This document shows positions 1-11,207 of a stretch of 21,231 bases of DNA, piece after piece. The position numbers and the translations under genes were made by a program. Source of the DNA: a virus; IMG/VR virus record IMGVR_UViG_3300020408_000053, positions 1-21,231 of that record; one strand, given 5' to 3'. Under the pieces are notes generated by a model. The model was not told the DNA's origin. It saw only the letters and a program-made list of their open reading frames with translations, and searched no databases. Numbering within the stretch: position 1 is the stretch's first letter; every line of letters begins with the position of its first letter.

Positions 1-1
1 C

Positions 2-346
2 GACCCCGCGATCATCTCCCCCGATGTTGTCGCGCTGTGCAATGAGCACGCCGACGGATGGACCGGCTACACCCACCAATGGCGTCAGCCCTTCGCGCAA
101 TGGTGCCGGGGCACGTTTCAGGCAAGCTGCGACGGGTTCGCCGATTATCTCGCGGCATCGGATGCCGGATGGCGAACCTTTGCAGTCGTTCCGAAAAATG
201 GCGAGGCCTTCAGCGGTAAGCAATGCCCGGCCACCCTTGATGGCTCGGCTGTCACCTGCCGGACGTGTTCCCTGTGTGATGGCGCGAAGGCAGACATCTG
301 GGTTAAGGCCCACGGGGCCGGGGCGAAGCACTTCGCCACCGTGTGA
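2..346 (+). CDS. DUF7227-like phage protein, C-terminal part (5' end outside window)
   Basis: The frame is open from the first bases and ends in TGA at 344-346, giving 114 residues of a protein that begins upstream. It contains a GYTHQWR segment, a WRTFAVVP segment and a cysteine cluster (TCRTCSLCDGA) about 28 residues from the end, before a VKAHG motif. From memory this pattern (GYTH, then TxCxxCxLC, then AHG) is the C-terminal half of DUF7227 proteins, common in phages and of unknown biochemical role. The spaced cysteines suggest metal binding, which is inference. The overlapping frame starting at 24 runs through this gene and lacks these features, so I treat it as a shadow. A repeat element follows the stop. 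Confidence 0.72.
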   Translation, partial: DPAIISPDVVALCNEHADGWTGYTHQWRQPFAQWCRGTFQASCDGFADYLAASDAGWRTFAVVPKNGEAFSGKQCPATLDGSAVTCRTCSLCDGAKADIWVKAHGAGAKHFATV

Positions 347-365
347 CAATCGAGCCAGTGGACTC

Positions 366-432
366 AAAAAGGCCTGGCTTATCTTTTTCAGGCCTTATCC
401 TTTGGAGGTCAATCAGTCGGCCTTCTCAACCG
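366..432 (+). repeat. AGGCCT hairpin element, copy A
   Basis: A perfect 8-bp inverted repeat, AAGGCCTG (369-376) with CAGGCCTT (389-396), encloses a T-rich 12-base loop. It is followed by ATCCTTTGGAGGTCAATCA and a pyrimidine-rich tract ending at the ATG at 433. From about 391 to 431 it matches copy B nearly base for base. GGAGG sits about 26 bases before the ATG, too far for an ordinary Shine-Dalgarno. The function is unknown; it could act as promoter, terminator or RNA element. Confidence 0.8.
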
Positions 433-624
433 ATGAAAACCTTCACCAGCGTTCAAACCTATTTCTCAGTCGCCCCCGTTGGTGGCTGCTCCATGGGTGC
501 CCTTTACGTCTCACGCGACAAAGCCGAGGCCAAAGCAGCTCTGCTCAACCGCGAATGGAACGGCGAGCGGACGTTCACAGTCAAGACCGAAACGATCGAA
601 ACATTCACAGCTCACGAGATGTGA
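433..624 (+). CDS. Small hypothetical protein (63 aa)
   Basis: I do not recognise this protein. The frame is open further upstream (to 343), but the extra sequence is repeat element A, so the ATG at 433, just after that element's pyrimidine-rich tail, is the better start. The product is short and polar, opens MKTFTSVQTYF, and has a helical middle (SRDKAEAKAALLNREW) ending in FTVKTETIETF. There is no signal peptide or membrane segment. The layout of a short beta start, helix and beta end resembles many small phage early proteins, but no function can be inferred. It is a single-gene unit between repeat A and a strong terminator at 631-665. Confidence 0.6.
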   Translation: MKTFTSVQTYFSVAPVGGCSMGALYVSRDKAEAKAALLNREWNGERTFTVKTETIETFTAHEM

Positions 625-630
625 TCACAA

Positions 631-665
631 GGGGGGCCACTCACCCCCCGGCTTTTTTCTTTTTT
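631..665 (+). terminator. Intrinsic terminator after the 63-aa gene
   Basis: GGGGGG (631-636) pairs with CCCCCC (644-649) across a 7-base loop, followed by GGC and two T runs (653-658 and 660-665) broken by one C. It starts six bases after the stop of the upstream gene and runs straight into the pyrimidine leader of the next one. Confidence 0.8.
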
Positions 666-685
666 CCTTCTCTCTGTCTCTCACC
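666..685 (+). promoter_or_regulatory. Pyrimidine-rich start leader before DUF2786 gene
   Basis: CCTTCTCTCTGTCTCTCACC lies directly against the ATG at 686. There is no purine-rich Shine-Dalgarno site in the 25 bases before the start. Nearly the same tract precedes the ATG at 4142, and shorter forms precede 3730 and 6283. It may be a ribosome-loading or S1-binding leader, or part of a promoter and transcript start. Confidence 0.5.
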
Positions 686-1450
686 ATGACCAACACCAAC
701 GCCGCCGAAATAAAGGCAAAGATCGCCAAGCTTCTCAGGATGCAAGCGAGCGCGAACGAAAACGAAGCCGCCAACGCCGCGCTCCTGGTCGAGAAGCTTT
801 GCCGCCAGCACGGCATCAGCTCCGCCGAGGTTTCGGCTGACTTCGACCCCGAAAAAGATCAGGCGATCGCGTGGGATGCCCTGGCCTATGGCAAACGCCG
901 AGACGCCGCCGAGGTGCTCCTGCTGTCCTATGTGGCTTCGTTCTTCAACGGCCAGTGCATCAGCAAATACAGAAGCGGGCGAACCCTGATCGAAGTGATG
1001 GCCACACAGGGCCGCCGCGTCGAGATCGAGCTGTATTTCGACTTTCTACTTGAGACGATGAACAGTCAGGCCGACCGCGCCAAGGCTGCAGAGGATCCCC
1101 ACAAGCGGGACCGAGGATTCAGGCAGAACTTCCGCAAGGCCTTTGTCCAGTCGATCGGCTGCCGTCTTTATGACATCCGACAGGAGCAGATGAGGAAGGA
1201 GCGCGAAGCCGAAAGCATGCCCCGGCCTGCCGGAACCTCTGCCCCTGGCCTGGTGGCACAGAAGCGGCGAAACATTGAACAGCAGGCCGTCGAGGCCCTT
1301 TGCCGGAAGCTTCACCCCCGGCTCGGTTCGGGGTCCAGCTTCACCGGGGCCAGTGGAAGCGGAAGCCAGCACGGCAGAGCAGCAGGGGCCAAGGTCGGAC
1401 TGAACCGGCAGGTTTCAACCGGTCGCACCCTCGCCCTGGCCGGGGCCTGA
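686..1450 (+). CDS. DUF2786 domain protein (254 aa)
   Basis: The first 45 residues carry the DUF2786 signature: KIAKLLRM, an N/E/A-rich helix, then ALLVEKLCRQHGIS. Such proteins usually have a second domain after it, and the section from about residue 55 to 170 (AYGKRRDAAEVLLL, IEVMATQGRRVEIELYFDFL, FRQNFRKAFVQSIGCRL) fits a DUF7168-type partner. The last 60 residues are low-complexity Gly/Ser/Ala. The molecular role of the family is not established; it is frequent in phages and mobile DNA. The ATG at 686 follows the pyrimidine leader and is preferred over the longer open frame from 479, which overlaps the previous gene. Repeat element B follows the gene. Confidence 0.85.
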   Translation: MTNTNAAEIKAKIAKLLRMQASANENEAANAALLVEKLCRQHGISSAEVSADFDPEKDQAIAWDALAYGKRRDAAEVLLLSYVASFFNGQCISKYRSGRTLIEVMATQGRRVEIELYFDFLLETMNSQADRAKAAEDPHKRDRGFRQNFRKAFVQSIGCRLYDIRQEQMRKEREAESMPRPAGTSAPGLVAQKRRNIEQQAVEALCRKLHPRLGSGSSFTGASGSGSQHGRAAGAKVGLNRQVSTGRTLALAGA

Positions 1451-1485
1451 ATTCAGGGGGTGACGGTCGGCAAGCTGTCACCCTT

Positions 1486-1548
1486 AAAAGCCTGGCCATC
1501 TTTTCTAGGCCTTATCTTTTGGAGGTCAATCAAACGGCCTTCTCACCC
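1486..1548 (+). repeat. AGGCCT hairpin element, copy B
   Basis: This copy reads AAAAGCCTGGCCATC, a T-rich loop, AGGCCTT (1507-1513), then ATCTTTTGGAGGTCAATCA and GGCCTTCTCACCC up to the GTG at 1549. The stem has one defect compared with copies A and C (AAGCCT instead of AAGGCCT). The downstream half is almost identical to copy A. Confidence 0.8.
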
Positions 1549-2340
1549 GTGACGTTCACAACCCCCGCCCACATCACCAACGCTCTCACCGATCGGATCC
1601 GCGCCCGCCTACTGAATCAGGCCTACCGCCAGGCCGAGGCCGCGCAGCAGTTCGTCGGGCAAAACAAACCACCCCGCGTCAACCTCGGCCCCCTGGTCGC
1701 TGCCCGCTACGCGACTCTCCAAGTCCTGGATTCTGCAAACATCGACTTTCGCGCCATTCAGTTGATCACCGAGGACAGCGTGAAGAACGCCACCGACCTT
1801 TTGGAGGATCGCGTGAACCGGAACATCGGCGAAGGCGAGGAGCTGATCCACGTCGATCTAACGGTGCAGCAAACCGACCTCATCACCGGCACCGTTGAGG
1901 GCAAGGGCTGGCACATAAAGGTCCAGATGATGTGGAACTACCGCTACGGCGAAAACAGCGCTAACGGCGTGCTGACCGTCTACCCACAATTCAGAGGCAC
2001 CCGCCACGGCCTGCCCATGGCTGGCAAGGCTCAGCAGAGCAAGGCAACCGCCGAGAAAGAGGCCGCCAAGGCAGAGCGCCAAGCTGCCAAGGCCGCCCGC
2101 CGCGCTGAACTCCGGGCGAAGTTCGCCAAAGCCCCCGAGCGCCTGGCCCGCTCCTGCGAAAAAGACATCGATCAATGGGGAACCAACCACCCCACCGCGC
2201 CCGAGTGGGCATTCATCCGCGACGCCGCCCGCGCCCTGACCGTTGAGCAGCTCGACGAAATGTTCAACCAAGGGGCCAGGACATCCGGCGACATCCAAGA
2301 CCGTCTAGAGCGCCAGTTCCGCGCCCTGGCCACCGCCTGA
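1549..2340 (+). CDS. Hypothetical protein with Ala-rich coiled segment (263 aa)
   Basis: I do not recognise a family. The frame extends upstream to 1300, but that part overlaps the DUF2786 gene and repeat B; the GTG at 1549 directly after the repeat's CTTCTCACCC tail mirrors the placement in copy A, so I take it as the start. Residues 1-155 look globular (IRARLLNQAYRQAEAAQQF, GKGWHIKVQMMWNYRYGE, GVLTVYPQFRG). Residues about 160-205 are a charged alanine-rich helix (EKEAAKAERQAAKAARRAEL), probably coiled coil. A short C-terminal helical part follows. The strong preference for C-ending codons matches its neighbours. Confidence 0.6.
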   Translation: MTFTTPAHITNALTDRIRARLLNQAYRQAEAAQQFVGQNKPPRVNLGPLVAARYATLQVLDSANIDFRAIQLITEDSVKNATDLLEDRVNRNIGEGEELIHVDLTVQQTDLITGTVEGKGWHIKVQMMWNYRYGENSANGVLTVYPQFRGTRHGLPMAGKAQQSKATAEKEAAKAERQAAKAARRAELRAKFAKAPERLARSCEKDIDQWGTNHPTAPEWAFIRDAARALTVEQLDEMFNQGARTSGDIQDRLERQFRALATA

Positions 2341-2348
2341 CTCGAGAC

Positions 2349-2367
2349 GGCCCCCTTTGCGGGGGCC
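2349..2367 (+). terminator. GC hairpin without T tract
   Basis: GGCCCCC (2349-2355) pairs perfectly with GGGGGCC (2361-2367) around a TTTGC loop, nine bases after the upstream stop. The sequence after it is AAGAAAACC, not T-rich, so it is at best a weak terminator and may instead stabilise the transcript end. Confidence 0.45.
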
Positions 2368-2369
2368 AA

Positions 2370-2457
2370 GAAAACCACCTAAAAAATTGGCACCCCTGAA
2401 GGCCTGGCCATCTTTTTTAGGCCTTATCTTTTAGAAGTCGGCAGGGCACTCAACCCA
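2370..2457 (+). repeat. AGGCCT hairpin element, copy C
   Basis: AAGGCCT (2399-2405) pairs with AGGCCTT (2419-2425). The loop includes CCATCTTTTTTAGG (2408-2421), which recurs exactly at 5328. Flanks on both sides (AAAACCACCT before; GTCGGCAGGGCACTCA after) match copy D, so C and D share a longer unit than A and B. About 40 further bases lie between this copy and the ATG at 2498. Confidence 0.8.
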
Positions 2458-2497
2458 CGACGCCGCCACCGCCAACCACTAAGGGAATTCTCAACCC

Positions 2498-2692
2498 ATG
2501 GCATCAACCTTCAACACTTACGCCGAGTTGGTCACCGACTCAGGCCGCCACGCTCGCACCGATTGGGACCGCTGCAGCGCGACTCAGGCAGTCGCCGCCA
2601 CCCTCCGAATCGATCCCGACGCGATCATCAGCCGCGCCACCGACACCACCGGCTCCGCCCTGGTCGGCTTCATGCCCGGAGGCCTGGCCTGA
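2498..2692 (+). CDS. Small hypothetical protein (64 aa)
   Basis: I do not recognise this protein. It opens MASTFNTYAELV, has a central CSATQAVAATLRIDPDAIISRA helix pattern and ends GSALVGFMPGGLA. The start follows AATTCTCAACCC, another form of the pyrimidine-type leader, with no Shine-Dalgarno site. Its stop TGA shares a base with the next gene's ATG (TGATG at 2690-2694), so it heads a translationally coupled chain of five small genes. Codons end mostly in C, like the rest of this region. Confidence 0.6.
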   Translation: MASTFNTYAELVTDSGRHARTDWDRCSATQAVAATLRIDPDAIISRATDTTGSALVGFMPGGLA

Positions 2693-2997
2693 TGACACCC
2701 CTACAGCGTCACATCCTCCACACCCTGGCCCCGGCACTCGACGCCGACATCCTCAAGGAGTCGCTCACCGATTGGCTCCCCTTCGACACCCTCAACCGTT
2801 TTCAGTGGTTCGGGGTCAGCCTTCGCCCCTTTCTGACTGAGCTGGTCGAGTGGCTCCCCGATGACACCCTGGCCGCCTTTGTCGAACACCTAAAGACAGA
2901 GGCAGACATTGACGACCTACCCCCGGCCCCGGCCCCTCAGGCCCCGGCTGATGACTCCGACTTAGCGGAGATGACCATCGGCGAGGGGGTGGCCTGA
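2692..2997 (+). CDS. Small acidic hypothetical protein (101 aa)
   Basis: No family recognised. The ATG at 2692 overlaps the upstream stop (TGATG); a longer open frame from 2563 would run through the previous gene and is rejected. The N-terminal two thirds alternate Leu/Trp/Phe and acidic residues with a repeated theme: LTDWLPFDTLNRF and LVEWLPDDTLAAF, possibly an internal duplication of a short helical unit. A Pro/Ala linker (APAPQAPADD) leads to a short acidic tail. It is coupled to the next gene by another TGATG overlap. Confidence 0.6.
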   Translation: MTPLQRHILHTLAPALDADILKESLTDWLPFDTLNRFQWFGVSLRPFLTELVEWLPDDTLAAFVEHLKTEADIDDLPPAPAPQAPADDSDLAEMTIGEGVA

Positions 2998-3227
2998 TGA
3001 TCGCCTCCCCTTATTCGACGTTCACAGCAGACCGGGGGCATGGCTCCCCGATTGGCTCACTGTTCACCGTTACCGAACCGGCCCGGCTGGCCTATTGGGA
3101 CCCCGCCGTCGAGTTACCGGCCACCACGTCAACCCGCCGCGCCATGGCCTGCCCCTGGTCGCCGCCATCACCCCCGGCCCCCTCTGTCGACTTATTCGCC
3201 GAGATGTTCGGAGAGGTGGCCGAATGA
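2997..3227 (+). CDS. Small hypothetical protein (76 aa)
   Basis: No family recognised. The start overlaps the upstream stop at 2995-2999 (TGATG) and the stop overlaps the next start at 3224-3227 (ATGA). The product is proline- and serine-rich in the middle (CPWSPPSPPAPS) and ends VDLFAEMFGEVAE, an amphipathic acidic tail. A similar LFAE/LFAD motif occurs at the N termini of the products at 4348 and 5376, which may be chance in such short proteins. The evidence for coding is the tight coupling and shared C-ending codon habit. Confidence 0.5.
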   Translation: MIASPYSTFTADRGHGSPIGSLFTVTEPARLAYWDPAVELPATTSTRRAMACPWSPPSPPAPSVDLFAEMFGEVAE

Positions 3228-3340
3228 TTCAGATCATCCACCGAACCCGGCCCGTGCTGCCGGGCGAAACACCACCACCGACCCCGCCGCGCTGGATCAA
3301 GTCCGGCCCGCAATTGCCAACCCTCCCCCCTCGCTTTTGA
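3224..3340 (+). CDS. Proline-rich micro-protein (38 aa)
   Basis: This short frame begins in the ATGA overlap with the previous gene and ends at TGA 3338-3340, two bases before the next ATG. The product starts MIQIIHRTRPVLPGE and then is mostly proline (PPPTPPRW, LPTLPPRF). I do not recognise it. Being slotted exactly between two genes with no spare bases is the main reason to accept it. A longer reading of the same frame from 3095 is possible but overlaps the upstream gene. Confidence 0.45.
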   Translation: MIQIIHRTRPVLPGETPPPTPPRWIKSGPQLPTLPPRF

Positions 3341-3342
3341 TC

Positions 3343-3624
3343 ATGTCTCAGGAATTCTGCAACCCCTGCCACGAACTGGCAGAACGCCATCACCAGCTTG
3401 AGTCACTCGGCCACGCCATGCACTGCGTTCGCGAGGGGTTCAGCCCTGGCGATGAATGGACGTCTACAGACCAGGCGATAGCGAATCACTGCGAGGCCTT
3501 GCGAGATGTTCAGCTTTCATTGGCCCGCGAGTTAATCGCCGCCGCCGACCGTCACGCCGAATGGCTCAAAGAACAGCGGAAGCAGGCCGCCGCCGAGGTG
3601 AACGCCGACGAGGAAACCACCTGA
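3343..3624 (+). CDS. Helical hypothetical protein (93 aa)
   Basis: No family recognised. The product starts MSQEFCNPCHELAERHHQLE and is predicted mostly helical with many His, Glu and Arg residues; the early CxxC with nearby histidines could bind a metal, which is speculative. The C terminus (WLKEQRKQAAAEVNADEETT) is charged. The ATG at 3343 lies two bases after the previous stop; the longer open frame from 3040 crosses two upstream genes and is rejected. This is the last gene of the coupled chain, and repeat element D begins inside its final codons. Confidence 0.6.
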   Translation: MSQEFCNPCHELAERHHQLESLGHAMHCVREGFSPGDEWTSTDQAIANHCEALRDVQLSLARELIAAADRHAEWLKEQRKQAAAEVNADEETT

Positions 3625-3700
3625 GAAATCGGCACAGCTAAAGGCCAGGCCATCCAAGCGAGGATATATCTTTAAGGGGTCGGAAGGGCACTCAGCCCGC
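3612..3700 (+). repeat. AGGCCT hairpin element, degenerate copy D
   Basis: The copy keeps the outer blocks of copy C (AAACCACCT, GGCAC, AAGGCC, GGCCATC, TATCTTT, GTCGG, AGGGCACTCA) but the right arm of the hairpin is replaced by CAAGCGAGGATA, so the AGGCCT stem is lost. Its left end overlaps the last codons of the 3343 gene. It leads into the CTTCTCTCACC leader of the next gene. Confidence 0.65.
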
Positions 3701-3713
3701 TTTGACCGACCCC

Positions 3714-3729
3714 CTTCTCTCACCTGACC
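3714..3729 (+). promoter_or_regulatory. Pyrimidine start leader (CTTCTCTCACC)
   Basis: CTTCTCTCACC (3714-3724) followed by TGACC meets the ATG at 3730. The same 11 bases occur exactly at 6269 and 7367. No Shine-Dalgarno site is present. Confidence 0.5.
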
Positions 3730-4086
3730 ATGACCCTCTCCCCCGCTTATCTCTCAGACGTCGCCATTTCCTACGGCGTCGACACCGAAACCCCCGAGGC
3801 CATGCAAGGCATGGACCCCTGGACCGTCACCCTCACCACTGAGCACGGCTCTGAATCCTTCCCATACTTCAGGGGCAAGGGCCATCACGGCGCAGAGCCC
3901 GAGGTGTGGGAGGTGATCCACTGCCTGGTCTCTGATGCTTCCTTCCTGGAATGCGAGCCCGAGGAGTGCAGCTACCCCGTAGGCAAGGCGATCGAAGCCA
4001 ACAATCAAAAAATGGCAGCGCTGTTCGGCTCCTATTGGGAGACCCTGCGGGCCATGGATGAAGACGAGATCCGCGCCGTTTTCTGA
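3730..4086 (+). CDS. Hypothetical phage protein (118 aa)
   Basis: The product has a beta-rich first half (PWTVTLTTEHGSESFPYF, then RGKGHHGAEP) and a helical second half containing VIHCLVSDASFLE and NQKMAALFGSYWETL. From memory this arrangement (a VTLxxxG strand, a FPYFxG/PFF turn, then DVLxCLxSDAS) recurs in uncharacterised small phage proteins, but I cannot name a family with confidence. No signal or membrane segment. It stands alone between repeat D and its leader upstream and a strong terminator at 4096-4126 downstream. Confidence 0.65.
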   Translation: MTLSPAYLSDVAISYGVDTETPEAMQGMDPWTVTLTTEHGSESFPYFRGKGHHGAEPEVWEVIHCLVSDASFLECEPEECSYPVGKAIEANNQKMAALFGSYWETLRAMDEDEIRAVF

Positions 4087-4095
4087 TCACCCCCG

Positions 4096-4126
4096 GCCCC
4101 CTCGCGGGGGGCTTTTTCTTTTTTCC
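4096..4126 (+). terminator. Intrinsic terminator
   Basis: GCCCCC (4096-4101) pairs with GGGGGC (4107-4112) over a five-base loop, followed by TTTTT, C and TTTTTT. It lies ten bases after the stop of the upstream gene and is the same design as the terminator at 631-665, including the pyrimidine leader that follows. Confidence 0.82.
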
Positions 4127-4141
4127 TTCTCTCTCTCTCTC
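4124..4141 (+). promoter_or_regulatory. Pyrimidine-rich start leader before the HTH gene
   Basis: TTCCTTCTCTCTCTCTCTC abuts the ATG at 4142 and continues the terminator T run. The block from the T runs onward resembles 653-685 closely, so terminator plus leader seems to be a repeated cassette. Confidence 0.5.
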
Positions 4142-4348
4142 ATGTCTCTCTCCTTCTCCTTTGTTGCCCTGCTGCTGCTGATCACCCTGCCCCTGGTGAT
4201 CCTCTGGCGTCTCTCACTTACCCCCGAGCAAGACCAGGCCCGCCGCATCCGTCAGGCCCGCCGCGTGCATGGCCTGAGCCAGCAACGACTGGCCGACCGC
4301 TTTGGGGTCAGCCGTTACCGCGTCCGGGTTGCTTTAGGGGTGGCCTGA
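4142..4348 (+). CDS. Predicted membrane-anchored helix-turn-helix protein (68 aa)
   Basis: Residues 5-24 form an uninterrupted hydrophobic segment (VALLLLITLPLVILW) followed by a basic stretch (ARRIRQARRVHG). Residues 44-66 read GLSQQRLADRFGVSRYRVRVAL, a helix-turn-helix with the usual Gly/Ser start, Ala-x-x-Phe-Gly-Val turn and recognition helix. The inference is an inner-membrane protein whose cytoplasmic tail contacts DNA. The ATG at 4142 follows the leader; the open frame continues upstream to 4058 through the terminator, which argues against an earlier start. Its stop overlaps the next gene's start (TGATG). Alternatively the hydrophobic segment could be a signal-like artefact of a C/T-rich start. 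Confidence 0.6.
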   Translation: MSLSFSFVALLLLITLPLVILWRLSLTPEQDQARRIRQARRVHGLSQQRLADRFGVSRYRVRVALGVA

Positions 4349-4467
4349 TGCTGAATCTGAATCTATTTGCAGAGGTGGAGATTCGCCGTTTGATGCGACG
4401 CCACAAGATCGGACGCGATCAGGCCGTTTCTCTTTATCTCCGCCAAAGAATCGAACAGCTCGATTAA
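4348..4467 (+). CDS. Basic micro-protein (39 aa)
   Basis: This frame starts in the TGATG overlap with the HTH gene and ends at TAA 4465-4467. The product opens MLNLNLFAEVEIRRLMRR and continues HKIGRDQAVSLYLRQRIEQLD, a charged helical peptide. I do not recognise a family. Tight coupling to the upstream gene suggests a shared job, perhaps as a partner of the membrane HTH protein, which is inference. Confidence 0.5.
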   Translation: MLNLNLFAEVEIRRLMRRHKIGRDQAVSLYLRQRIEQLD

Positions 4468-4498
4468 CACCAACCGAAACCCCGCTAATTAACAACTT

Positions 4499-4693
4499 AT
4501 GGACAATTTTGCTTTTCGACTTTCTAATCTGGTATCCGCCGCTGATTTAAATAAAGTTCATCTAACGCATGAAGAACAAGTTCTAATAATTCTTCTGCTT
4601 CGCAACATGGATGAACCTACATACAAAGGGCGAGTTGCTGACAGAGATTCAATTCTCGAGAAATACATGGCGACAATGAACGCCACCAATTAA
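4499..4693 (+). CDS. Small AT-rich hypothetical gene (64 aa)
   Basis: No family recognised. The product (MDNFAFRLSNLVSAADLNKV, then HEEQVLIILLLRNMDE and DSILEKYMATMNATN) is helical and soluble, with a hydrophobic stretch too short and charged to be a membrane anchor. Its DNA is much richer in A and T than the genes before it, so it may have a different history. The start lies 31 bases after the previous stop in an A-rich context (TAACAACTT) with no Shine-Dalgarno site. A hairpin with a T-rich tail follows at 4716. Confidence 0.55.
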   Translation: MDNFAFRLSNLVSAADLNKVHLTHEEQVLIILLLRNMDEPTYKGRVADRDSILEKYMATMNATN

Positions 4694-4715
4694 CAGCAAC
4701 CCGCCAAATATTCTC

Positions 4716-4749
4716 AGCCGCTGCGTTCACTCGTGGCGGCTTTGTTGTG
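4716..4749 (+). terminator. Probable terminator closing the left module
   Basis: AGCCGC (4716-4721) pairs with GCGGCT (4736-4741) across a 14-base loop and is followed by TTGTTGTG. The stem is short and the T run interrupted, so it is weaker than those at 631 and 4096. Confidence 0.5.
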
Positions 4750-5327
4750 TCCAGACGTCAGGCGATCACCTGTAAAAAGCGACAAATAGGCCCCCCTAAT
4801 CAGAGGCCTCTAGAAGCCCCTGAGAGCGCCGCTATTTGTGGAGGATAGAGCAGGTCAAAGCCTGCCTTTTCGCTTGCCTGAGAAGCACACAGGAACCGCT
4901 GAGAATCAATCAGAACAGGGCGAAACAGGGGCCGCGCTCGCCAGCTCTGGGCCGTGGTCAAAAGACCGAGTGCCTTGTGACAATTGCAACATTGTCTACC
5001 AAAAGGCCAGGCCTTCTGAGCTGTAGCCCTTCACTTCTAGAAGGGGATCAGGCCCCCGGATCCATTGCGCCGCAATGCTCCCGACCCCTTCCAATTAATC
5101 CCCTCTACTGACGCGGCAGGCCTGCCCCCTGATCCCGTCCGACGGACCAGAGCAGGTCGAACTTGTCAAGCCTAAAAGCTACAAATCGGAGTATAAAAAA
5201 ATACCCCCACCCAGGGGGGAGCCGGTCCAGGTTCTTGAGAATGCTTCTCAACAAGGTACTCCAAAATTAGAAATTTTCAATTTTTCGAGGATTTGGGTTT
5301 TTGATCCCAGCGGCCCCGCTTGCGTGT
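4750..5327. other. Gene-free, palindrome-rich control region (candidate origin)
   Basis: No convincing gene lies here; the two overlapping frames at 4836-5111 are low-complexity and lack start signals. I count ten inverted repeats: ACAAATAG/CTATTTGT (4782, 4832), AGAGGCCTCT (4802-4811), GACAAT/ATTGTC (4979-4996), AAGGCC-A-GGCCTT (5003-5015), CTTCTAGAAG (5034-5043), ATTGCG-C-CGCAAT (5064-5076), GGCAGGCCTGCC (5115-5126), GTCCG-A-CGGAC (5137-5147), CCCCC/GGGGG (5204-5218), TTGAGAA-TGC-TTCTCAA (5235-5251). An AT-rich stretch follows at 5263-5285. A replication origin, operator cluster or structured RNA are all possible. Confidence 0.6.
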
Positions 5328-5375
5328 CCATCTTTTTTAGGATGAAGTGGAGCAAGGCCACTATTCACCCCTCTC
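5328..5375 (+). repeat. AGGCCT element, partial copy E, and leader
   Basis: CCATCTTTTTTAGG (5328-5341) is identical to 14 bases of copy C, but the AGGCCT arms are missing (GTGTCC before, ATGAAG after). It is followed by a tract ending CACCCCTCTC against the ATG at 5376, the same element-then-leader order as copies A and B. Confidence 0.55.
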
Positions 5376-5624
5376 ATGGAGCACAACCCACTAATCCTGA
5401 ACCTGTTTGCAGATTTGATTGCCGTCGAAGCTCACAGGTTAGACGTTCCAATACAGCCCATCGACGTTGCTGAGGCTTGTTACGAGAAGCTGTTTGAGGT
5501 CATCGCGCAGGAGGCTTACGAGGTCGTGCTGGATATCCAAGAAGCCCGTGACTCACTGCCGCCTTGGGAGAATCCGACAGGCGATGTACCTGAGATAAGC
5601 GAGCTAGCAGGAAGCTGCAGATGA
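5376..5624 (+). CDS. Small acidic hypothetical protein (82 aa)
   Basis: No family recognised. The product opens MEHNPLILNLFADLIAVEAH and has a predicted helical core (VAEACYEKLFEVIAQEAYEVVLD) and an acidic, proline-containing tail. The N-terminal LNLFAD recalls LNLFAE in the micro-protein at 4348, but the rest does not match. It follows partial repeat E and a pyrimidine leader with no Shine-Dalgarno site, and ends just before a GC hairpin at 5630. It appears to be a one-gene unit. Confidence 0.6.
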   Translation: MEHNPLILNLFADLIAVEAHRLDVPIQPIDVAEACYEKLFEVIAQEAYEVVLDIQEARDSLPPWENPTGDVPEISELAGSCR

Positions 5625-5629
5625 CCCAG

Positions 5630-5651
5630 GCCCCCCAAGCGGGGGCTTTCT
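5630..5651 (+). terminator. Probable intrinsic terminator
   Basis: GCCCCC (5630-5635) pairs with GGGGGC (5641-5646) across a five-base loop and is followed by TTTCTCG. It lies six bases after the stop of the upstream gene. The T tract is short, so termination may be partial. Confidence 0.6.
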
Positions 5652-5744
5652 CGTATCAAAACTGCTCAGAAACCTGAATAAAACATAAAAGGCCTTGCAC
5701 TTCATCTCTAACCTCTTTAAGACAGGCCGAGATCAAAACAGGTC

Positions 5745-6056
5745 ATGACAGCAGCACCAAGTATCACAGCCCTCGGGTGGACCCCAGACGGGGAGCTGAG
5801 CCCAGAAGCGGAGGCAACTCATTTGCTGATCAACCGCATCAAGGCGTGCATCCCACCCTCCTCAATGACGTCTGAGGAAATTAGCAACCAGATCCGTGCC
5901 AAGAGCAGAGAGATTGCTCAACTGCAGGACTGGTACGACTCCGGCGCACTGAGCGCTGAATGCGAGCGCAAGAACATCACCGACGCGATTGACGAAATCA
6001 CCGAGGAGATCATCCAGCTCCTGACGTCGGTCCCAGCCACGGAGCCCAGTGTTTGA
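5745..6056 (+). CDS. Hypothetical helical protein (103 aa)
   Basis: No family recognised. After a Gly/Pro-containing N terminus (ITALGWTPDGELSPEAEA) the product is largely helical (EEISNQIRAKSREIAQLQDWYD, then TDAIDEITEEIIQLL), consistent with a small coiled-coil protein. It heads a run of six closely packed genes to 7317; the next gene's GTG lies inside its last codons. Upstream, 5650-5744 is gene-free and could hold a promoter, but I see no good -35/-10 pair. Confidence 0.6.
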   Translation: MTAAPSITALGWTPDGELSPEAEATHLLINRIKACIPPSSMTSEEISNQIRAKSREIAQLQDWYDSGALSAECERKNITDAIDEITEEIIQLLTSVPATEPSV

Positions 6057-6246
6057 AGTCTGGGACCGTCACCGCCGAGAGGTGGTTGGTTTAGCGGACT
6101 CGAAATCCGAAGCGGTTTGGATCGGTGCCAACTCTTTAAAGCAGCACCCCAAACGGAAGCTTCGAGACCTCGTTATTCGCCCACACCTTGAGCCACCAGT
6201 TCGTGTCTTCTACATGAAGCAGCCAATACCACCGCGACCCCGATAG
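6049..6246 (+). CDS. Small basic hypothetical protein (65 aa)
   Basis: The frame starts at GTG 6049, overlapping the previous gene by eight bases, and ends at TAG 6244-6246. The product (MFEVWDRHRREVVGLADSKS, then a basic stretch HPKRKLRDLVIRP) looks like a short beta-hairpin plus helix, similar in feel to many small phage proteins that begin FxVWDRxxxEVVG. I do not know a named family. Coupling to the upstream gene is the main evidence for this non-ATG start. Confidence 0.55.
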   Translation: MFEVWDRHRREVVGLADSKSEAVWIGANSLKQHPKRKLRDLVIRPHLEPPVRVFYMKQPIPPRPR

Positions 6247-6268
6247 CGCGGCACCAAAAAGCCCAAGT

Positions 6269-6282
6269 CTTCTCTCACCTGA
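6269..6282 (+). promoter_or_regulatory. Pyrimidine start leader (CTTCTCTCACC)
   Basis: CTTCTCTCACCTGA (6269-6282) abuts the ATG at 6283 and is the same 11-base core as at 3714 and 7367, followed in the 3714 copy by TGACC. This is the clearest case that the motif marks gene starts, because no repeat element or terminator stands next to it. Confidence 0.5.
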
Positions 6283-6738
6283 ATGAACTCAATCCAAGCG
6301 AGACACCTCATCAATCAGAGGCATCGCAGGCGTCGAATCTCCATCTCCACCTATCCACCTTTTGCTATGCCAGCCCAGTGGTCTGAAAACGATCTTTCAA
6401 GGGAACTGATCCGTTTCGAGGAGCGGAAATCAAATATCAAAGAACTGCAAGAAGAGCACGACGTGCATGCAGAGCGCATCCGTCAGCACTTCGAGGCACA
6501 TGACCTGACCTCAGTTCAGATTGTGAACTCGGAATTCAAGATCAAGTCTCGAACGACCAAGACCTACAGCCGCCACTTAGCGCGTGAAGAGGAGCGTCTA
6601 AAGAACCAGATCAAAGCGTCCAAGAAGCAGGAAGAGGAGAACGCTCTGAACCCTGAGTACGACGGCCCGCATCAGTGCGTCATCGAGGAGAACAAGTTTC
6701 ACCACATCGAAGTACGTCGTTTGGAGGGGACCAAATGA
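6283..6738 (+). CDS. Coiled-coil phage protein (151 aa)
   Basis: The first 30 residues are basic (QRHRRRRIS); the core (LIRFEERKSNIKELQEEHD, HAERIRQHFEAHDLTSVQI) is a helical pair followed by a short strand. This motif, helix ending in xIRxxFxxHxLxSVxV and then a small strand-rich part, is familiar from small uncharacterised phage proteins often found in early regions. The C-terminal half is charged and ends HHIEVRRLEGTK. The start follows the CTTCTCTCACC leader; an internal ATG at 6367 (MPAQWSENDL) is an alternative that would drop the basic N terminus. Its stop overlaps the next ATG. Confidence 0.6.
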   Translation: MNSIQARHLINQRHRRRRISISTYPPFAMPAQWSENDLSRELIRFEERKSNIKELQEEHDVHAERIRQHFEAHDLTSVQIVNSEFKIKSRTTKTYSRHLAREEERLKNQIKASKKQEEENALNPEYDGPHQCVIEENKFHHIEVRRLEGTK

Positions 6739-6902
6739 GTTACATCCTTCCAATCGCATCGTTGGGGGTTTCAGTGTTCGTAATCATCACGACACCTTGG
6801 CCCACTGCAGACGAAATGTGGACGACGCCCCACCAACAGCAGATGCAAGAGGTCATCGACTACCTGGACCCGCTCACCATCGCAAGAAAAAACTCTCAAT
6901 GA
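6735..6902 (+). CDS. Small protein with N-terminal membrane segment (55 aa)
   Basis: The ATG at 6735 overlaps the previous stop (ATGA) and has a good Shine-Dalgarno, GGAGGGG at 6723-6729. Residues 3-21 are hydrophobic (ILPIASLGVSVFVIITTPW), so the protein is probably a single-pass membrane or secreted peptide; the tail (TADEMWTTPHQQQMQEVI) is polar. I do not recognise a family. A longer open frame from 6675 overlaps the upstream gene and is less likely. Its stop overlaps the next gene's ATG. Confidence 0.6.
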   Translation: MSYILPIASLGVSVFVIITTPWPTADEMWTTPHQQQMQEVIDYLDPLTIARKNSQ

Positions 6903-7075
6903 CTTTTGACGACTACTGCCGCCGAGCGCGACTGAACGCACTGGCATCAAAGAAGGCTTACTTCGTGACTGAAGTAGAGGGCGGATATCAGGTGACGACT
7001 GACCCCCCGAACACAGACGCCATCAAATACGTGGCGAGGCCCAGCAACGTCGACCAACTCACCTCACTGTTATGA
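6899..7075 (+). CDS. Small hypothetical protein (58 aa)
   Basis: Starts in an ATGA overlap with the preceding gene and ends in another with the next, so it is part of a tightly coupled set. The product reads MTFDDYCRRARLNALASKKAYF and then VTEVEGGYQVTTDPPNTDAI, a helix followed by a beta-hairpin. I do not recognise it. Longer readings of the frame from 6797 would overlap the membrane-peptide gene entirely and are rejected. Confidence 0.55.
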   Translation: MTFDDYCRRARLNALASKKAYFVTEVEGGYQVTTDPPNTDAIKYVARPSNVDQLTSLL

Positions 7076-7317
7076 AATTGAAGGATCCGATCTACAAGAT
7101 GCCTGGTCATAACGGCCAGCACGCACCACGAGCGATGTTCACTAACGAGGACATCCAGACCATCCGCGAGCTTCGAGCGGAGGGCACGAGCGCAATGGAA
7201 CTTGCAGTGCGCTTTAAGTGCAATGTCACGACGATCCACCGGATCATCTCAAAGAGGACATACAAGCCTGGGGGAACGCATAAAAACACCCCCGTTTCTC
7301 AGGCGGGGGTGCAATGA
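7072..7317 (+). CDS. Small helix-turn-helix DNA-binding protein (81 aa)
   Basis: Residues 22-63 form a resolvase/sigma-like HTH: FTNEDIQTIRELRAEGTSAMELAVRFKCN then TTIHRIISKRTYK. This pattern (a helix with IRxLRAEG, then S..ELA..F.cN...I.RI...k.Y) is common in phage HTH proteins, alone or fused to HNH domains. No nuclease motif is present, so a regulator is likeliest. It is the last gene of the 5745-7317 run. Its last codons contain a strong hairpin (7287-7311), and three TTCTCAGGC repeats begin there and continue downstream, which would be plausible binding sites. Confidence 0.72.
   Translation: MKLKDPIYKMPGHNGQHAPRAMFTNEDIQTIRELRAEGTSAMELAVRFKCNVTTIHRIISKRTYKPGGTHKNTPVSQAGVQ
7287..7311 (+). 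other. GC-rich hairpin inside the 3' end of the HTH gene
   Basis: CACCCCCG (7287-7294) pairs perfectly with CGGGGGTG (7304-7311), ending four bases before the TGA. No T run follows, so it is not a standard terminator; it may protect the transcript end or slow ribosomes. Confidence 0.6.
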
Positions 7318-7365
7318 GTCCACGTTTCTCAGGCGCAGACAGTGACTCAGGTTCTCAGGCCTGAG
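7294..7365 (+). repeat. Three TTCTCAGGC repeats and a 12-bp palindrome
   Basis: TTCTCAGGC starts at 7296, 7326 and 7352. The first two share the longer GTTTCTCAGGCG. The third runs into the perfect palindrome CTCAGGCCTGAG (7354-7365). Spacing of 30 and 26 bases is close to but not exactly three and two and a half helical turns. An operator array for the adjacent HTH protein is the simplest reading. Confidence 0.6.
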
Positions 7366-7504
7366 CCTTCTCTCACCACCACCTCCTTCGTAGAGGAGAG
7401 GTGGGCGAGCGGACTTTAAGCGTTAATCCGTTCGGAAGAAATAGTAGCACTGTCCTGACCAAAACGGGTCAAGGACAAAAAACAAGTCTTTCAAGGAGCT
7501 TCAA
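7318..7504 (+). other. Structured spacer upstream of the 7505 gene
   Basis: No gene is seen. The spacer holds the repeat array, CTTCTCTCACC at 7367-7377 (here without an adjacent start), a hairpin of CCACCTCCT (7379-7387) with AGGAGAGGTGG (7394-7404), a smaller hairpin CGGA..TCCG near 7410-7430, and a strong stem GTCCTGACC (7452-7460) with GGTCAAGGAC (7467-7476, one bulged A). AAGGAG at 7493 is the ribosome site of the next gene. It would form a long folded 5' leader. Confidence 0.5.
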
Positions 7505-7672
7505 ATGAAGAACGAAATCCGAAACGTCCGTCCTCAGCAGTTCGGAGAACTCACCAGCCAGCTCTCACAGGTGTTGTTGGGCAGTGCCCACGGCCTGGAG
7601 AAGACATCACGTCAATTACGAAGAGCCAAACAACGCAAAGCCAGAAGCTCAGTGCTGCGCTGGCAGATCTAA
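7505..7672 (+). CDS. Small basic hypothetical protein (55 aa)
   Basis: This short gene has one of the best ribosome sites in the window, AAGGAG at 7493-7498, six bases before the ATG. The product starts MKNEIRNVRPQQFGELTSQL and ends in a highly basic helix (RQLRRAKQRKARSSVLRW). I do not recognise a family; the basic tail suggests nucleic-acid or membrane-surface contact, which is inference. It follows a long structured leader and precedes a stretch with a possible broken gene. Confidence 0.6.
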   Translation: MKNEIRNVRPQQFGELTSQLSQVLLGSAHGLEKTSRQLRRAKQRKARSSVLRWQI

Positions 7673-7710
7673 GTAAACCGCTGGCATGAAGCGGATGCGA
7701 TGGCCATCCA

Positions 7711-7862
7711 GTGACGTTCCTGCCTAATGATGCACGCCATTACCTGGGCCGGGTGATGGGGATTACCTACGAGCTGTTTGCCCAGCTCGCCAGGGCGTGC
7801 CTCTCATAAGAAAACAGGTTCCCATTGAGGACGCGGGGTGGTTCCAGGGGGTAGTGCCCTAA
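7711..7862 (+). pseudogene. Possible small gene split between two frames
   Basis: From GTG 7711 one frame reads VTFLPNDARHYLGRVMGITY ELFAQLARACLS and stops at 7807-7809. The neighbouring frame continues the same style (QGVPLIRKQVPIEDAGWF, then QGVVP) and stops at 7860-7862. Joined by one shift near 7785-7800 they would give a plausible ~50-residue protein, so this may be a frameshifted gene, a programmed frameshift or chance. There is no good ribosome site and no family match. The 3' part also folds: ACGCGG (7831-7836) with CCGCGT (7868-7873), enclosing AGGG/CCCT. Confidence 0.25.
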
Positions 7863-7929
7863 ACGAGCCGCGTGTAAGGAGCGTTTTCAGTAAGACCAGC
7901 CAACTTTTTATCAATCCTGCTTTTGACTA
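7863..7929. other. Short gene-free gap before the 7930 gene
   Basis: The stretch from 7673 to 7929 contains no intact gene longer than about 32 residues. Its last 67 bases close the stem described for 7831-7873 and then run AT-rich (CAACTTTTTATCAATCC) up to the ATG at 7930. I see no clear promoter. Confidence 0.35.
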
Positions 7930-8184
7930 ATGACTTGGAATCGATTTTTCATAACGAACGTCCTGATGAAGGATCGTTTGTACCGGCAGATTCACAACCG
8001 CGTTGTCAAGCTCACCCCCACCCGGATGTCAGACATCCTCAAACGACAGAGGCAGGGAAAGTTGACCAGTTTTGACATGCAATACGTCGAAGCAACTCAG
8101 ACACTACGCATGCGAGAGGAGTTTATTCGTTTGAACTATTTAGAGAGCTGCTTCAACAACTCGCAGGACTGGACTCATGCCTAG
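7930..8184 (+). CDS. Basic hypothetical protein (84 aa)
   Basis: No family recognised. The product opens MTWNRFFITNVLMKDRLYRQ and is helical and basic through IHNRVVKLTPTRMSDILKRQ, then FDMQYVEATQTLRMREEFI, ending with an acidic-aromatic tail. No membrane segment. No Shine-Dalgarno is visible before the ATG. The next gene starts inside its final codons (eight-base overlap), so it heads a short group of three genes ended by the terminator at 8504. Confidence 0.6.
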   Translation: MTWNRFFITNVLMKDRLYRQIHNRVVKLTPTRMSDILKRQRQGKLTSFDMQYVEATQTLRMREEFIRLNYLESCFNNSQDWTHA

Positions 8185-8347
8185 ACATTTTCATCCACAC
8201 GGCCCTGCATACACTTCTTATTTGAAGAACACAGGGCAATTGCCGCACTCAAAAGTAAAGGATGCCGAACTAACCAAAGATCAACATAAGGCTAGGATGT
8301 TGCACAAGAGGAGGTTTTGGGAACTTGTATTACATAGACTCGATTGA
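8177..8347 (+). CDS. Small basic hypothetical protein (56 aa)
   Basis: The ATG at 8177 overlaps the end of the previous gene. The product begins MPRHFHPHGPAYTSYLKNTG, with a histidine-rich start, and ends in a basic helix (KARMLHKRRFWELVLHRLD). I do not recognise it. The gene's last codons contain AGGAGG (8309-8314), the ribosome site for the following gene, which supports both being real and linked. Confidence 0.5.
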   Translation: MPRHFHPHGPAYTSYLKNTGQLPHSKVKDAELTKDQHKARMLHKRRFWELVLHRLD

Positions 8348-8480
8348 CGCACAGGCGATCACAGAAGCGTGGGTCTGGGAGAGGGTTATCTATCTCTATG
8401 ACTGCGTTTGTATGGAAGACGCCGACGCGCTGATGTCTGAGTGGGAGCTAGAGGATTTTGACCACAGAGGGGTGATCTGA
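8325..8480 (+). CDS. Small acidic protein with TTG start (51 aa)
   Basis: Translation most likely begins at TTG 8325, ten bases after a perfect AGGAGG (8309-8314) located inside the upstream gene. The product continues YYIDSIDAQAITEAWVWERV, then IYLYDCVCMEDADALMSEWE and an acidic end. It is helical, acidic and unfamiliar. Without accepting TTG, the first ATG would leave only a 22-residue stub, so the ribosome site decides the call. The gene ends 24 bases before the strong terminator at 8504. Confidence 0.5.
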   Translation: MYYIDSIDAQAITEAWVWERVIYLYDCVCMEDADALMSEWELEDFDHRGVI

Positions 8481-8503
8481 CGATCCGCTCAGAACGTAGT
8501 GTA

Positions 8504-8526
8504 GGCCAGGTGACTGGCCCTTTTTT
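8504..8526 (+). terminator. Strong intrinsic terminator before the virion block
   Basis: GGCCAG (8504-8509), loop GTGA, CTGGCC (8514-8519), then C and six T. This is the most textbook terminator in the window and separates the small-gene region from the packaging and structural genes. Confidence 0.9.
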
Positions 8527-8650
8527 GTGCCTATATTCGTGAAGAGAAATTAAGGCGTTTATGTTTACTTTTTCCTAGTCTTTTGCACCGCATTTATTCA
8601 TAATGCTCTGAAAGTTAGTCGTTAATCTGAGTGTTCCCGATGAAATAAAA
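8527..8650 (+). promoter_or_regulatory. AT-rich spacer, likely site of the late promoter
   Basis: Between the terminator and the first gene of the virion block lies 124 bases of AT-rich DNA. All downstream genes are on one strand without another clear terminator, so a promoter should be here. Candidate boxes (TATATT at 8532, TTGCAC at 8584, TAATGC at 8601) do not sit at proper spacing, so I do not assign exact -35/-10 positions. Confidence 0.35.
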
Positions 8651-8821
8651 ATGATGCTTCCTGCCATGATGATGAAGACCCATTCACCAGAGATGGAGCT
8701 GTACGAAATCAGGGCAATCAGTGATGAGGAGATCCGCTCAGCTAATCAAAGTTTCCTTGAGCAGGGGCTTCCTTACAGGGTTATTCGATCAGCCGCAGCA
8801 GTTGCCGAAGCGGCTGCTTGA
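8651..8821 (+). CDS. Small hypothetical protein (56 aa)
   Basis: The frame opens with several possible ATGs (8651, 8654, 8666 onward). The product core MELYEIRAISDEEIRSANQS, then FLEQGLPYRVIRSAAAVAEA is a compact acidic-to-helical protein. No family recognised. The longer frame starting at 8721 in another phase overlaps it fully; I give priority to this frame because the next gene has its own good start at 8850. It appears to be the first gene of the late block. Confidence 0.5.
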   Translation: MMLPAMMMKTHSPEMELYEIRAISDEEIRSANQSFLEQGLPYRVIRSAAAVAEAAA

Positions 8822-8849: not shown

Positions 8850-9257
8850 ATGTCAGTGGAATACATCACGGACGCTGCCGTGCCGCTTTGTTTGATCCCG
8901 GCATCTTTCCGGCATCCACTAGCTCAACAATTTGAAGAGATCGATGAAGATGGCGATCTCATTCGGAGCTATGACGAGTGGGGCCTGGCATCAGTACTGA
9001 CCTACGCATACACAAAGCGTGTTGCAAAGAAGTCGGAGTACTCCACGATGGAATTCATCATTGGTGAGTGCCTAGAAAACTCACGTCATAGCGCTAGTGA
9101 GAACAAAGCCTTGTTCCGAGCGTTGAAGCGCGGCATCAAGAGTGGCAATGAGGCTGAGATTCTCAGCTACTCAAAAATCCTGATGTCAAAGATTGGCTCA
9201 GCATTGGCGGAACAGCACGAAGGTCTCTCCGATGAGGAGGACGATGAGGAAGATTGA
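8850..9257 (+). CDS. Hypothetical protein upstream of the terminase (135 aa)
   Basis: The start ATG 8850 follows GGAGCAGGAG (8835-8844), a usable ribosome site, and avoids the overlap with the 8651 gene that a start at 8721 would cause. The product begins MSVEYITDAAVPLCLIPASF, is helical from about residue 45 (WGLASVLTYAYTKRVAKKS, FRALKRGIKSGNEAEILSYS) and ends in a highly acidic tail (LSDEEDDEED). I do not recognise it. Position directly before the NblA-like and terminase genes, with a 14-base overlap to the former, suggests late expression. Confidence 0.6.
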   Translation: MSVEYITDAAVPLCLIPASFRHPLAQQFEEIDEDGDLIRSYDEWGLASVLTYAYTKRVAKKSEYSTMEFIIGECLENSRHSASENKALFRALKRGIKSGNEAEILSYSKILMSKIGSALAEQHEGLSDEEDDEED

Positions 9258-9444: not shown

Positions 9445-9880
9445 CGGTTTGGACGAGCGCCAGATACTGGCAGCTCAGGCCTTGGCTAATGGTTGCTCAT
9501 GGCGGGATGCAGCACGACGAGCTAAATGCACCGCTGAGACGATCAGGATGTGGCGCAAGAAAGATGCGTTCAATGATGCGGTCTGGACTTACCAGCAAGA
9601 GATCTTTCAGCAGTCATTCGGAGTGGTATCTGAAGCGTTGCCTATGGCAATTGCAAAGCTGAGGGAGATTGTCGCTGACGATGACCCGGACATCAACACG
9701 AGCGTTAAAGTTCAAGCAATCAAGATTCTGATTGACGCCGCACAGAAGCAATACGAGACACGCACTATCGAGCGACGTATCGAACAACTAGAAGGTTATG
9801 CAAGGGCGAACGTTACAGTCGAGACTATCGAAGCTCGAACGATTGCACCAGGAGAAGGTGCAGGAGGAGGATCGGCGTAG
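9431..9880 (+). CDS. terS: Terminase small subunit (149 aa)
   Basis: TerS recognises the phage packaging site and stimulates the TerL motor. Residues 7-46 are a homeodomain-like HTH (LDERQILAAQALANGCSWRD, then AARRAKCTAETIRMWRKKDA) typical of small terminases. The middle is helical (MAIAKLREIVADD, SVKVQAIKILIDAAQKQYE), as expected for the oligomerisation part, and the end is a Gly-rich tail. The ATG at 9431 follows GGAGGT (9421-9426) and is preferred over the one at 9401. It overlaps the NblA-like gene by 14 bases and the large-subunit gene by 83 bases. Confidence 0.85.
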   Translation: MDRPDGLDERQILAAQALANGCSWRDAARRAKCTAETIRMWRKKDAFNDAVWTYQQEIFQQSFGVVSEALPMAIAKLREIVADDDPDINTSVKVQAIKILIDAAQKQYETRTIERRIEQLEGYARANVTVETIEARTIAPGEGAGGGSA

Positions 9881-11207
9881 AAGGGAGAATACTGGCGAGT
9901 TATTTGAAGCTAAGTTCCCCACTGCAGAGCACTGGGATAAGTTCGCGCCTCTGACGTGGATTCGTACTTCTGGAACAATCAAACCCTTCAAACCGTTTGA
10001 GATTCAGAAGAAGCTCGTTCAATCAATTTGTGAGCATCAATATACGATCATTTTGAAAAGTCGACAGGTCGGTGCCTCCGAGACTGTCTGCTCGTATTTA
10101 TTGTGCAGAGCGCTGACTGAGCCAGGATTCTCAGCGGTTGTATTTAGTAAAACTGCGACCGACTCTGGCTCACTAGGTAAGAGGATACGCGCACAAGCGG
10201 CGAGTATTGCAGATTCCCAGATTGAGTTCACGACAGAATCAAATAGTGAGCTGTCTTTCAAGGGCCTTGGGACAATTTACTTCTTGCCTGCTACACCACG
10301 TGCGGCTCGTGGAATTCCGAGCGTTTCGTGTGTTGTCTTGGATGAGGCCGCTTTTCTGGACGGATGCGATGCCATCTTCACGGCAGTCCAACCGACGATG
10401 GCGACCCTAGGGGACCAGGGCAAGCTGATTATGATTTCGACGCCCAATGGTTTGGGCAACATGTTCAGCAACTTGTGGCATACAGCGGACGAGTGGAACA
10501 AATTTAAAATCCACTACAGCGATATACCGATCTACGCCAAAGACCCTGATTGGGCGGAAAAAACAAAGCGTCGATCCAAGCTGACGAACCGTGCTTTCAG
10601 ACAGGAATATGAGCTGGACTTCGTAGCTTCGGATGCTCAGATCTATCAACCCGAGTTAGTCGAGCTGGCCTGTAACGGCGAATGCATCGAAACAGGCTTC
10701 ATCGGAAGGGAGTACATCATGAGCGTCGACCCGGCTGCAGGCGGCGACGACTACTGGTGCTCGATCGTGATGGACGTCACCAGGCCCCCGTACAGGGTGG
10801 TCAATGTCTTCAGGATGCGGCACAAGAGCAGCGACTACTGCATCAAACAAATCATCGAGCAGGCAGAGAACTTCGCCCCCGCAAAGGTGATTATCGAGAA
10901 GAACGGTGTCGGCGCGATCGTCTCAGAGGTGCTGTCCAAAAAGCTGGCCAAGTACATGGTGGAGCCATATAACACCAATCGACCTAACAAGATCAGCAAT
11001 ACAGACAGGGTGGCCTACTTACTCGAAAGAGAAGAGCTTCTTTTGCCTTACGACCCTTATTACCAGGAACTATTGATGTTCCAGCAGATGGAGAACGGAG
11101 ATAGAAGAGCGGGAGAAGGGGCGCACGATGACTCAGTGATGGCTCTCGCGCTGGCTTGCTCAGCGGTAGCTACAACACCAACAGCAGATTGGCTTGATTT
11201 GGTATGA
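9798..11207 (+). CDS. terL: Terminase large subunit (469 aa)
   Basis: TerL is the ATP-driven DNA packaging motor and nuclease. All signature motifs are visible: Walker A KSRQVGAS at 87-94, Walker B VVLDEAA at 179-185 with catalytic E183, coupling motif STPNG at 214-218, and a C-terminal RNase H-like nuclease with acidic residues D311 (SVDPAAGGDD), E367 (VIIEKNG) and D444/D445 (GAHDDSVMAL). Length is normal. The ATG at 9798 lies 83 bases inside terS; in-frame TTG 9843 and GTG 9858 are alternatives, since the first 40 residues are a charged helix not needed for the core. The stop overlaps the next start (ATGA). Confidence 0.97.
   Translation: MQGRTLQSRLSKLERLHQEKVQEEDRRRRENTGELFEAKFPTAEHWDKFAPLTWIRTSGTIKPFKPFEIQKKLVQSICEHQYTIILKSRQVGASETVCSYLLCRALTEPGFSAVVFSKTATDSGSLGKRIRAQAASIADSQIEFTTESNSELSFKGLGTIYFLPATPRAARGIPSVSCVVLDEAAFLDGCDAIFTAVQPTMATLGDQGKLIMISTPNGLGNMFSNLWHTADEWNKFKIHYSDIPIYAKDPDWAEKTKRRSKLTNRAFRQEYELDFVASDAQIYQPELVELACNGECIETGFIGREYIMSVDPAAGGDDYWCSIVMDVTRPPYRVVNVFRMRHKSSDYCIKQIIEQAENFAPAKVIIEKNGVGAIVSEVLSKKLAKYMVEPYNTNRPNKISNTDRVAYLLEREELLLPYDPYYQELLMFQQMENGDRRAGEGAHDDSVMALALACSAVATTPTADWLDLV

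Follow-up and report, generated by a model that had tools for sequence, protein, structure and literature searches.

The window, the stretch of 21,231 bases analysed here at full length, is the whole of its IMG/VR record and constitutes a linear fragment. Its terminase, portal, Mu F-like and major capsid genes identify it as part of a tailed phage, and its capsid protein shares 55% identity with the one of Synechococcus phage S-CBS4. The positions of these genes are:

9798-11207: terminase gene
11616-13679: portal gene
14192-15067: Mu F-like gene
18303-19205: major capsid gene

The GC content is 0.59-0.64 in the first 4 kb and about 0.5 elsewhere in the window, and the GC-rich part contains small genes; matches to phage families were obtained for several of them. 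The possibility that the left part is host flank was set aside, since its genes match phrog_2554, phrog_421, phrog_36669 and phrog_4273 and the layout is the same in relatives. The viral contig L092 encodes a terminase 89% identical to that of the window and carries a comparable left module, as does L008, while L089, with a terminase 98.5% identical, begins at window position 4799. The first gene (2-346) is common to the viral contigs L008, L009, L010, L011, L014, L015 and L016, and the gene at 8850, adjoining the terminase, is common to 38 viral contigs. Upstream of the first-gene homologue (L011:7430-7540, L106:2570-2650, L010 and L015) a T-arm-like GTGGGTTCAATTCCCAC is accompanied by a short acceptor-like stem (CACACA..TTGTGTG); ARAGORN called no tRNA on L010, L011 or L015. 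Positions 366-5375 used as a DNA query against phages and plasmids gave no match, and the proteins encoded at 686-1450 and 1549-2340 gave none against the viral contigs. A genome scan with the protein of 2997-3227 found no relative, and thus no cyanobacterial host genome was reached.

The left module contains a repeated element located in front of several of its small genes. The leaders, the copies and one gene referred to below are:

357-432, + strand: copy A leader, with box 1 AGTGGAC (357-363), box 2 TTATCTT (379-385), core ATCTTTTTCAGG (381-392), AGGCCT stem arms (369-377/388-396), second hairpin (404-410/419-425) and start tract TTCTCAACC (423-431); gene ATG at 433
625-685, + strand: leader of gene 686; no copy of the element, but a terminator-like hairpin, GGGGGGCCACTCACCCCCC, followed by the CU-rich start tract CTTCTCTCTGTCTCTCACC
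1474-1548, + strand: copy B leader, with box 1 GCTGTCA (1474-1480), box 2 CCATCTT (1496-1502), core ATCTTTTCTAGG (1498-1509), second hairpin (1521-1527/1536-1542) and start tract TTCTCACCC; gene GTG at 1549
2386-2497, + strand: copy C leader, with box 1 ATTGGCA (2386-2392), box 2 CCATCTT (2408-2414), core ATCTTTTTTAGG (2410-2421), AGGCCT stem arms (2399-2407/2417-2425) and start tract TTCTCAACC; gene ATG at 2498
3628-3729, + strand: copy D leader, with box 1 ATCGGCA (3628-3634), box 2 CCATCCA (3650-3656), short stem ATCC/GGAT and start tract CTTCTCTCACC; gene ATG at 3730; L092 counterpart at 1119-1195, 81% DNA identity
4087-4141, + strand: leader of gene 4142; likewise no copy of the element, and a CU-rich start tract 3' of a terminator-like hairpin
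4142-4348, + strand: small gene whose product has a hydrophobic N-terminus and a C-terminal helix-turn-helix; ends the element-bearing module in the window and in L092
4991-5018, + strand: sixth copy, degenerate and partial, ATTGTCT..AAAAGGCCAGG..CCTTCTG
5328-5375, + strand: copy E, with core CCATCTTTTTTAGGATG about 35 nt before the ATG at 5376

Copies A to D are statistically secure, with E values of 1e-11 to 9e-10 in a search with an HMM built from these same four copies. Of the five copies listed in an earlier note these four hold up, while E shares only the 14-20 nt core (E = 1.0) and the partial sixth copy (E = 0.06) had been overlooked; the latter also occurs in L089 at 194-221 and has no gene directly downstream. 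Pairwise alignments of B and of C with E beat 150 shuffles, and the pairwise tests connect A, B, C and D with one another, B and C with E, B with copy 1 of L008, and the L008 copies mutually. The similarities noted between individual copies hold. A, B and C have in common AAGGCCTGGC..ATCTTTTYTAGGCCTTATCYTTT, with three matches to RGGCCTTATCYTTTRGARGTC against 0.00 expected, A and B are 88% identical over 52 nt, and CCATCTTTTTTAGG is identical at 2408 and 5328. Similarly, C and D have in common an upstream flank and GGGCACTCA-CCC, with local alignment scores unmatched by 150 shuffle pairs. The conserved stretch extends further 5' than had been described, to a first box (357, 1474, 2386 and 3628) that precedes the second by about 22 bases, and its 3' end is a pyrimidine-rich tract at the start codon.

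The resemblance of A/B and C/D to recent duplicates of leaders with their flanks, together with stems that vary freely, might indicate functionless non-coding repeats that spread by duplication between leaders. This is the least probable of the explanations considered here, because the placement is strictly 5' of genes and in gene orientation, the same boxes are found in phages with largely unrelated module genes, and E is kept at one locus in several phages. Counterparts of E occupy the same place in L089, L092, L101 and L123, and more weakly in L008, and the distance from core to start codon is 34-36 nt in the window, L089, L101 and L123. The core hairpin CATCTTTTTTAGGATG (window 5329-5344) is exactly inverted in L092:1157-1172 (CATCCTAAAAAAGATG), as if flipped between its arms. 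In the region 5' of E, sites with the sequence GATAATGAGAATCATT, which we take to resemble Fur boxes, occur in L101:240-265, L123:360-440 (two sites) and L089:430-460, and the window contains a palindrome, TTGAGAATGCTTCTCAA, at about 5236-5252.

The aligned copies define a motif consisting of (A)TTGGCA, 13-15 bases and then YYATCYT or TTGTCCT, in gene orientation, which in copies A to C of the window runs into the core ATCTTTTYTAGG. Copies are present in the related phages L092, L089 and L008; a lack of further copies in related phages would have counted against the proposal of the earlier note. In L092 and L008 the cassette precedes their own small genes, and the L092 leaders are built alike, including TTGCATCTTTTCTAGGATGCAA at 53-74. 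Of 60,996 positions scored with a matrix derived exclusively from A to D, the four best are L092 leaders, and the third-best score on L092 is reached by 0 of 100 shuffles. Similarly, a matrix trained on L092 gives C the top score in the window and A the next, and its best position in L008 is leader 3106. Since the limits of the boxes were set after reading the L092 and L008 sequences, this matrix evidence is strong and not fully blind. Every L092 match of at least 16.6 bits is a leader, the next scoring 11.7, with a matrix that includes these sites, and matches of at least 13 bits are distributed 10:0 between the gene strand and the other strand with a 15-base spacer and 12:2 with a 14-base spacer. 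Motif transfer between the window and L008 is weak, as the window-trained matrix ranks one of five L008 leaders high and its third-best score there is not above shuffles. The HMM of A to D barely detects the L008 copies, so that the matrix of the two boxes and the pairwise comparisons carry the argument for their kinship. In the window, a crude box consensus turns up 48 times against 54.8 expected, which is no enrichment, and the case therefore depends on the matrix and the cross-genome test. In A to C the box matches partly overlap (1474/1491; 2386/2403), which leaves their register ambiguous.

The AGGCCT hairpin, by which the element was originally defined, does not define it: the stem is confined to A, B and C and is absent where the core and boxes recur in other phages. 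Searches of the viral contigs and the species genomes with exact patterns of 20-26 bases from the AGGCCT half gave no match. Over 12 copies the AGGCCT stem pairs in 53.7% of cells against 52.5% in shuffles, with no covariation, and an alternative CATC/GATG stem pairs in 58.5%, with a covariation score within the shuffle range; one stem common to all copies was accordingly rejected, there being no significant covariation or conserved pairing over the 12 copies. The description of D and E as having lost the stem is correct for the AGGCCT stem, but other short stems are possible in both (ATCC/GGAT in D, CATC/GATG in E), and the folding of D is no better than that of shuffles (z -0.4) and that of E marginal (z -2.0, p 0.044). 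Stem loss in these copies is not supported as a meaningful event. The accompanying proposal that sequence, and not only structure, matters is sustained, because the core and the two boxes recur in other phages and the AGGCCT stem does not.

An element acting at the RNA level, with leader hairpins that signal processing, stability or antitermination between genes transcribed together and the CU tract serving as a ribosome landing site, is unlikely, although several observations favour it. The folding of A, L008 copy 3, E and its L089 counterpart is better than that of shuffles, with z about -2.0 to -2.5, the combined p over 16 hand-chosen windows being about 7e-4, and a second strong hairpin of 7 bp is found in A (z -3.1) and B (z -3.7). 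Several copies follow stop codons with no terminator in between. A terminator-like hairpin precedes gene 4142 by only about 20-30 nt and gene 686 by about 35 nt, so that both would need read-through. In contrast, the 12 copies display no significant covariation or pairing in a test that is unambiguous for the RNA at 7716-7904 described below, the stem register shifts from copy to copy, and the L092 copy with the inverted core retains a possible stem, not the loop sequence. Copies A to E are absent from the 21 terminator-like sites found by a scan restricted to loops of 3-8; the elements sit 5' of genes, some directly after terminator-like hairpins. Rfam 15 yielded no match at gathering score in the window and five relatives, and only chance-level matches (E up to 5), none of them on the copies.

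The boxes are about 20 bp apart, corresponding to two helical turns, AGGCCT is palindromic in A to C, and genes encoding helix-turn-helix proteins are located at 4142 and 7072. The product of 4142-4348, which has a weak relative in L092 (2016-2216, 35% identity), is a possible regulator. These features, and the inverted core of one L092 copy, tolerable for a double-stranded binding site, would suit operators bound by a repressor or activator of the phage that coordinates the module, the promoters being located at other sites. We consider such pure operators very unlikely, since the orientation to the genes is otherwise fixed, the palindrome is unconserved and sites occur without any linked regulator.

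The genes behind the leaders start after a pyrimidine-rich TTCTC(TCTC)ACC-ATG and mostly lack a Shine-Dalgarno sequence. TCTC lies within 25 bases of the start codon in 18/19 leader starts and in 2/30 other genes, whereas a Shine-Dalgarno-like sequence precedes 2/19 and 12/30, respectively; the L092 starts 108 and 658 were placed one base early, which leaves the counts unchanged. The 10-mer CTCTCTCACC is found 28 times in four long relatives (57.9-74.3 kb), against one occurrence of the reversed control; 27/28 copies share one strand within their genome, and most are gathered in a single module of about 4.5-6 kb adjoining an RNA of the 7716-7904 type. This distribution indicates that the start tract belongs to a wider phage group and the A-D element to a subgroup. 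A second leader type, TAATTAACAAC, lies just 5' of the start codons of AT-rich genes (window 4468-4498; L008:3800-3838 and 4215-4261), and the pairwise test supports the L008 pair.

A promoter or promoter/operator, one of the options listed in the earlier note, is judged the most likely reading. On the sequence evidence we give about an even chance to a repeated promoter or promoter/operator before each unit, combined with a translation signal associated with the start. Each copy would control a small transcription unit of its own in an accessory, probably early, module of a cyanosiphovirus, and the repeated signal suggests that the small genes are switched on together. The approximate signal TTGGCA, a 13-15 base spacer and YYATCYT, followed in A to C by TT(C/T)TAGG or similar, would be read as DNA by RNA polymerase together with a factor of host or phage origin, the promoter being atypical or dependent on an activator. 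The transcript would start near the AGG, and the short leader would provide a pyrimidine-rich translation signal without Shine-Dalgarno, TTCTC(TCTC)ACC-AUG. The AGGCCT inverted repeat of A to C, which overlaps spacer and core, may be a lineage-specific embellishment or an operator and is probably not essential. From this arrangement we infer the promoter activity, its start point, the factor and the co-regulation of the units.

The element shares with sigma-70 promoters a fixed orientation of its two boxes; TTGGCA is similar to TTGACA, and TATCYT retains the A and the final T of the -10 box in some copies. In contrast to sigma-70 promoters the spacer is short, the second box is far from TATAAT and no copy passes the consensus scan (TTGACA, 16-18, TATAAT), which found no site in 1-5400 and one in 1-8700, fewer than in shuffles. 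The missing sigma-70 match and the gap of 13-15, short for sigma-70, count against the promoter reading, as do the unenriched crude consensus, the weak transfer to L008, the ambiguous register of A to C, the genes 686 and 4142 without the element and the one inverted L092 core. It is conceivable, though quite unlikely, that the non-sigma-70 signal (TTGGCA, 13-15, YATCYT), read by a phage factor, is coupled to the Shine-Dalgarno-independent pyrimidine-rich start, so that a widespread group of cyanosiphoviruses would mark the gene starts of its accessory module with a code private to these phages.

The closest parallels to a promoter-bearing cassette are found in other virus groups. In cluster K mycobacteriophages many small non-structural genes each lie behind a repeated SAS/ESAS cassette (Pope 2011 PMC3203893; Adephagia 2024 PMC11373665). 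The ESAS, located 5' of the SAS, contains a putative SigA promoter overlapping an imperfect inverted repeat (PMC11373665); this upstream segment is present in a subset, and some genes have the start sequence alone (PMC3203893; PMC11373665). The element described here likewise consists of a repeated cassette before small genes, with a start-linked sequence and an upstream segment in a subset. Its short conserved sequence is tied to the translation starts of a subset of genes, which is a functional analogy to the SAS (CU tract at 18/19 against 2/30 starts). In contrast, the host group is another one and the SAS reads GGGATAGGAGCCC where the tract here is the CU-rich TTCTCTCACC. A search of the window for the 13-bp SAS, allowing 2 mismatches, gave 0 matches, and the element therefore does not belong to the SAS family. 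Unlike in the ESAS, the AGGCCT inverted repeat occurs in just three copies, all in one phage, and is unconserved over the 12 copies, and the two boxes are separated by 13-15 instead of 17-18. The intergenic repeats of halovirus HF2, for which promoter activity has been demonstrated (PMC8707807), similarly combine conserved blocks with variable parts and keep their relative positions among related viruses, but HF2 is an archaeal virus with promoters of that kind and the likeness is drawn without sequence relation. We rate the element among the phage-specific repeated gene-start elements, outside the SAS family.

A structured RNA of about 165-190 nt is located at 7716-7904 of the window, in single copy per genome and upstream of the terminase module:

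L008:7540-7730, L089:2740-2931, L092:6173-6365, L011:13145-13320 and others: homologues of the RNA, in 13 or more cyanophage contigs

It is present in the members of the group whose contigs cover the place. Over 13 sequences 97.4% of cells are paired, against 82.7% in shuffles, 21/36 pairs are changed on both sides in a compensatory manner, and the covariation score is 0.450 against 0.178, a signal that is abolished by sliding the partners. A covariance model gives 18 full matches among 83 loci, some of which belong to the same contig, and the 13 sequences from which the model was built match by construction; S-CBS4 and MED4-184 gave no match. The RNA at 7716-7904 has no Rfam match. It may be undescribed and may be a more important find than the repeat, and it constitutes a second, separate lead.

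No such repeat is described for cyanophages in the open-licence literature searched, and the timing of short accessory genes in siphoviruses of small cyanobacteria appears to be little described. The repeated gene-start cassette defines a testable regulon and offers a way to locate transcription starts in metagenomic phages. The CU-rich start signal could, in addition, flag true starts of small genes that gene finders based on Shine-Dalgarno sequences miss.
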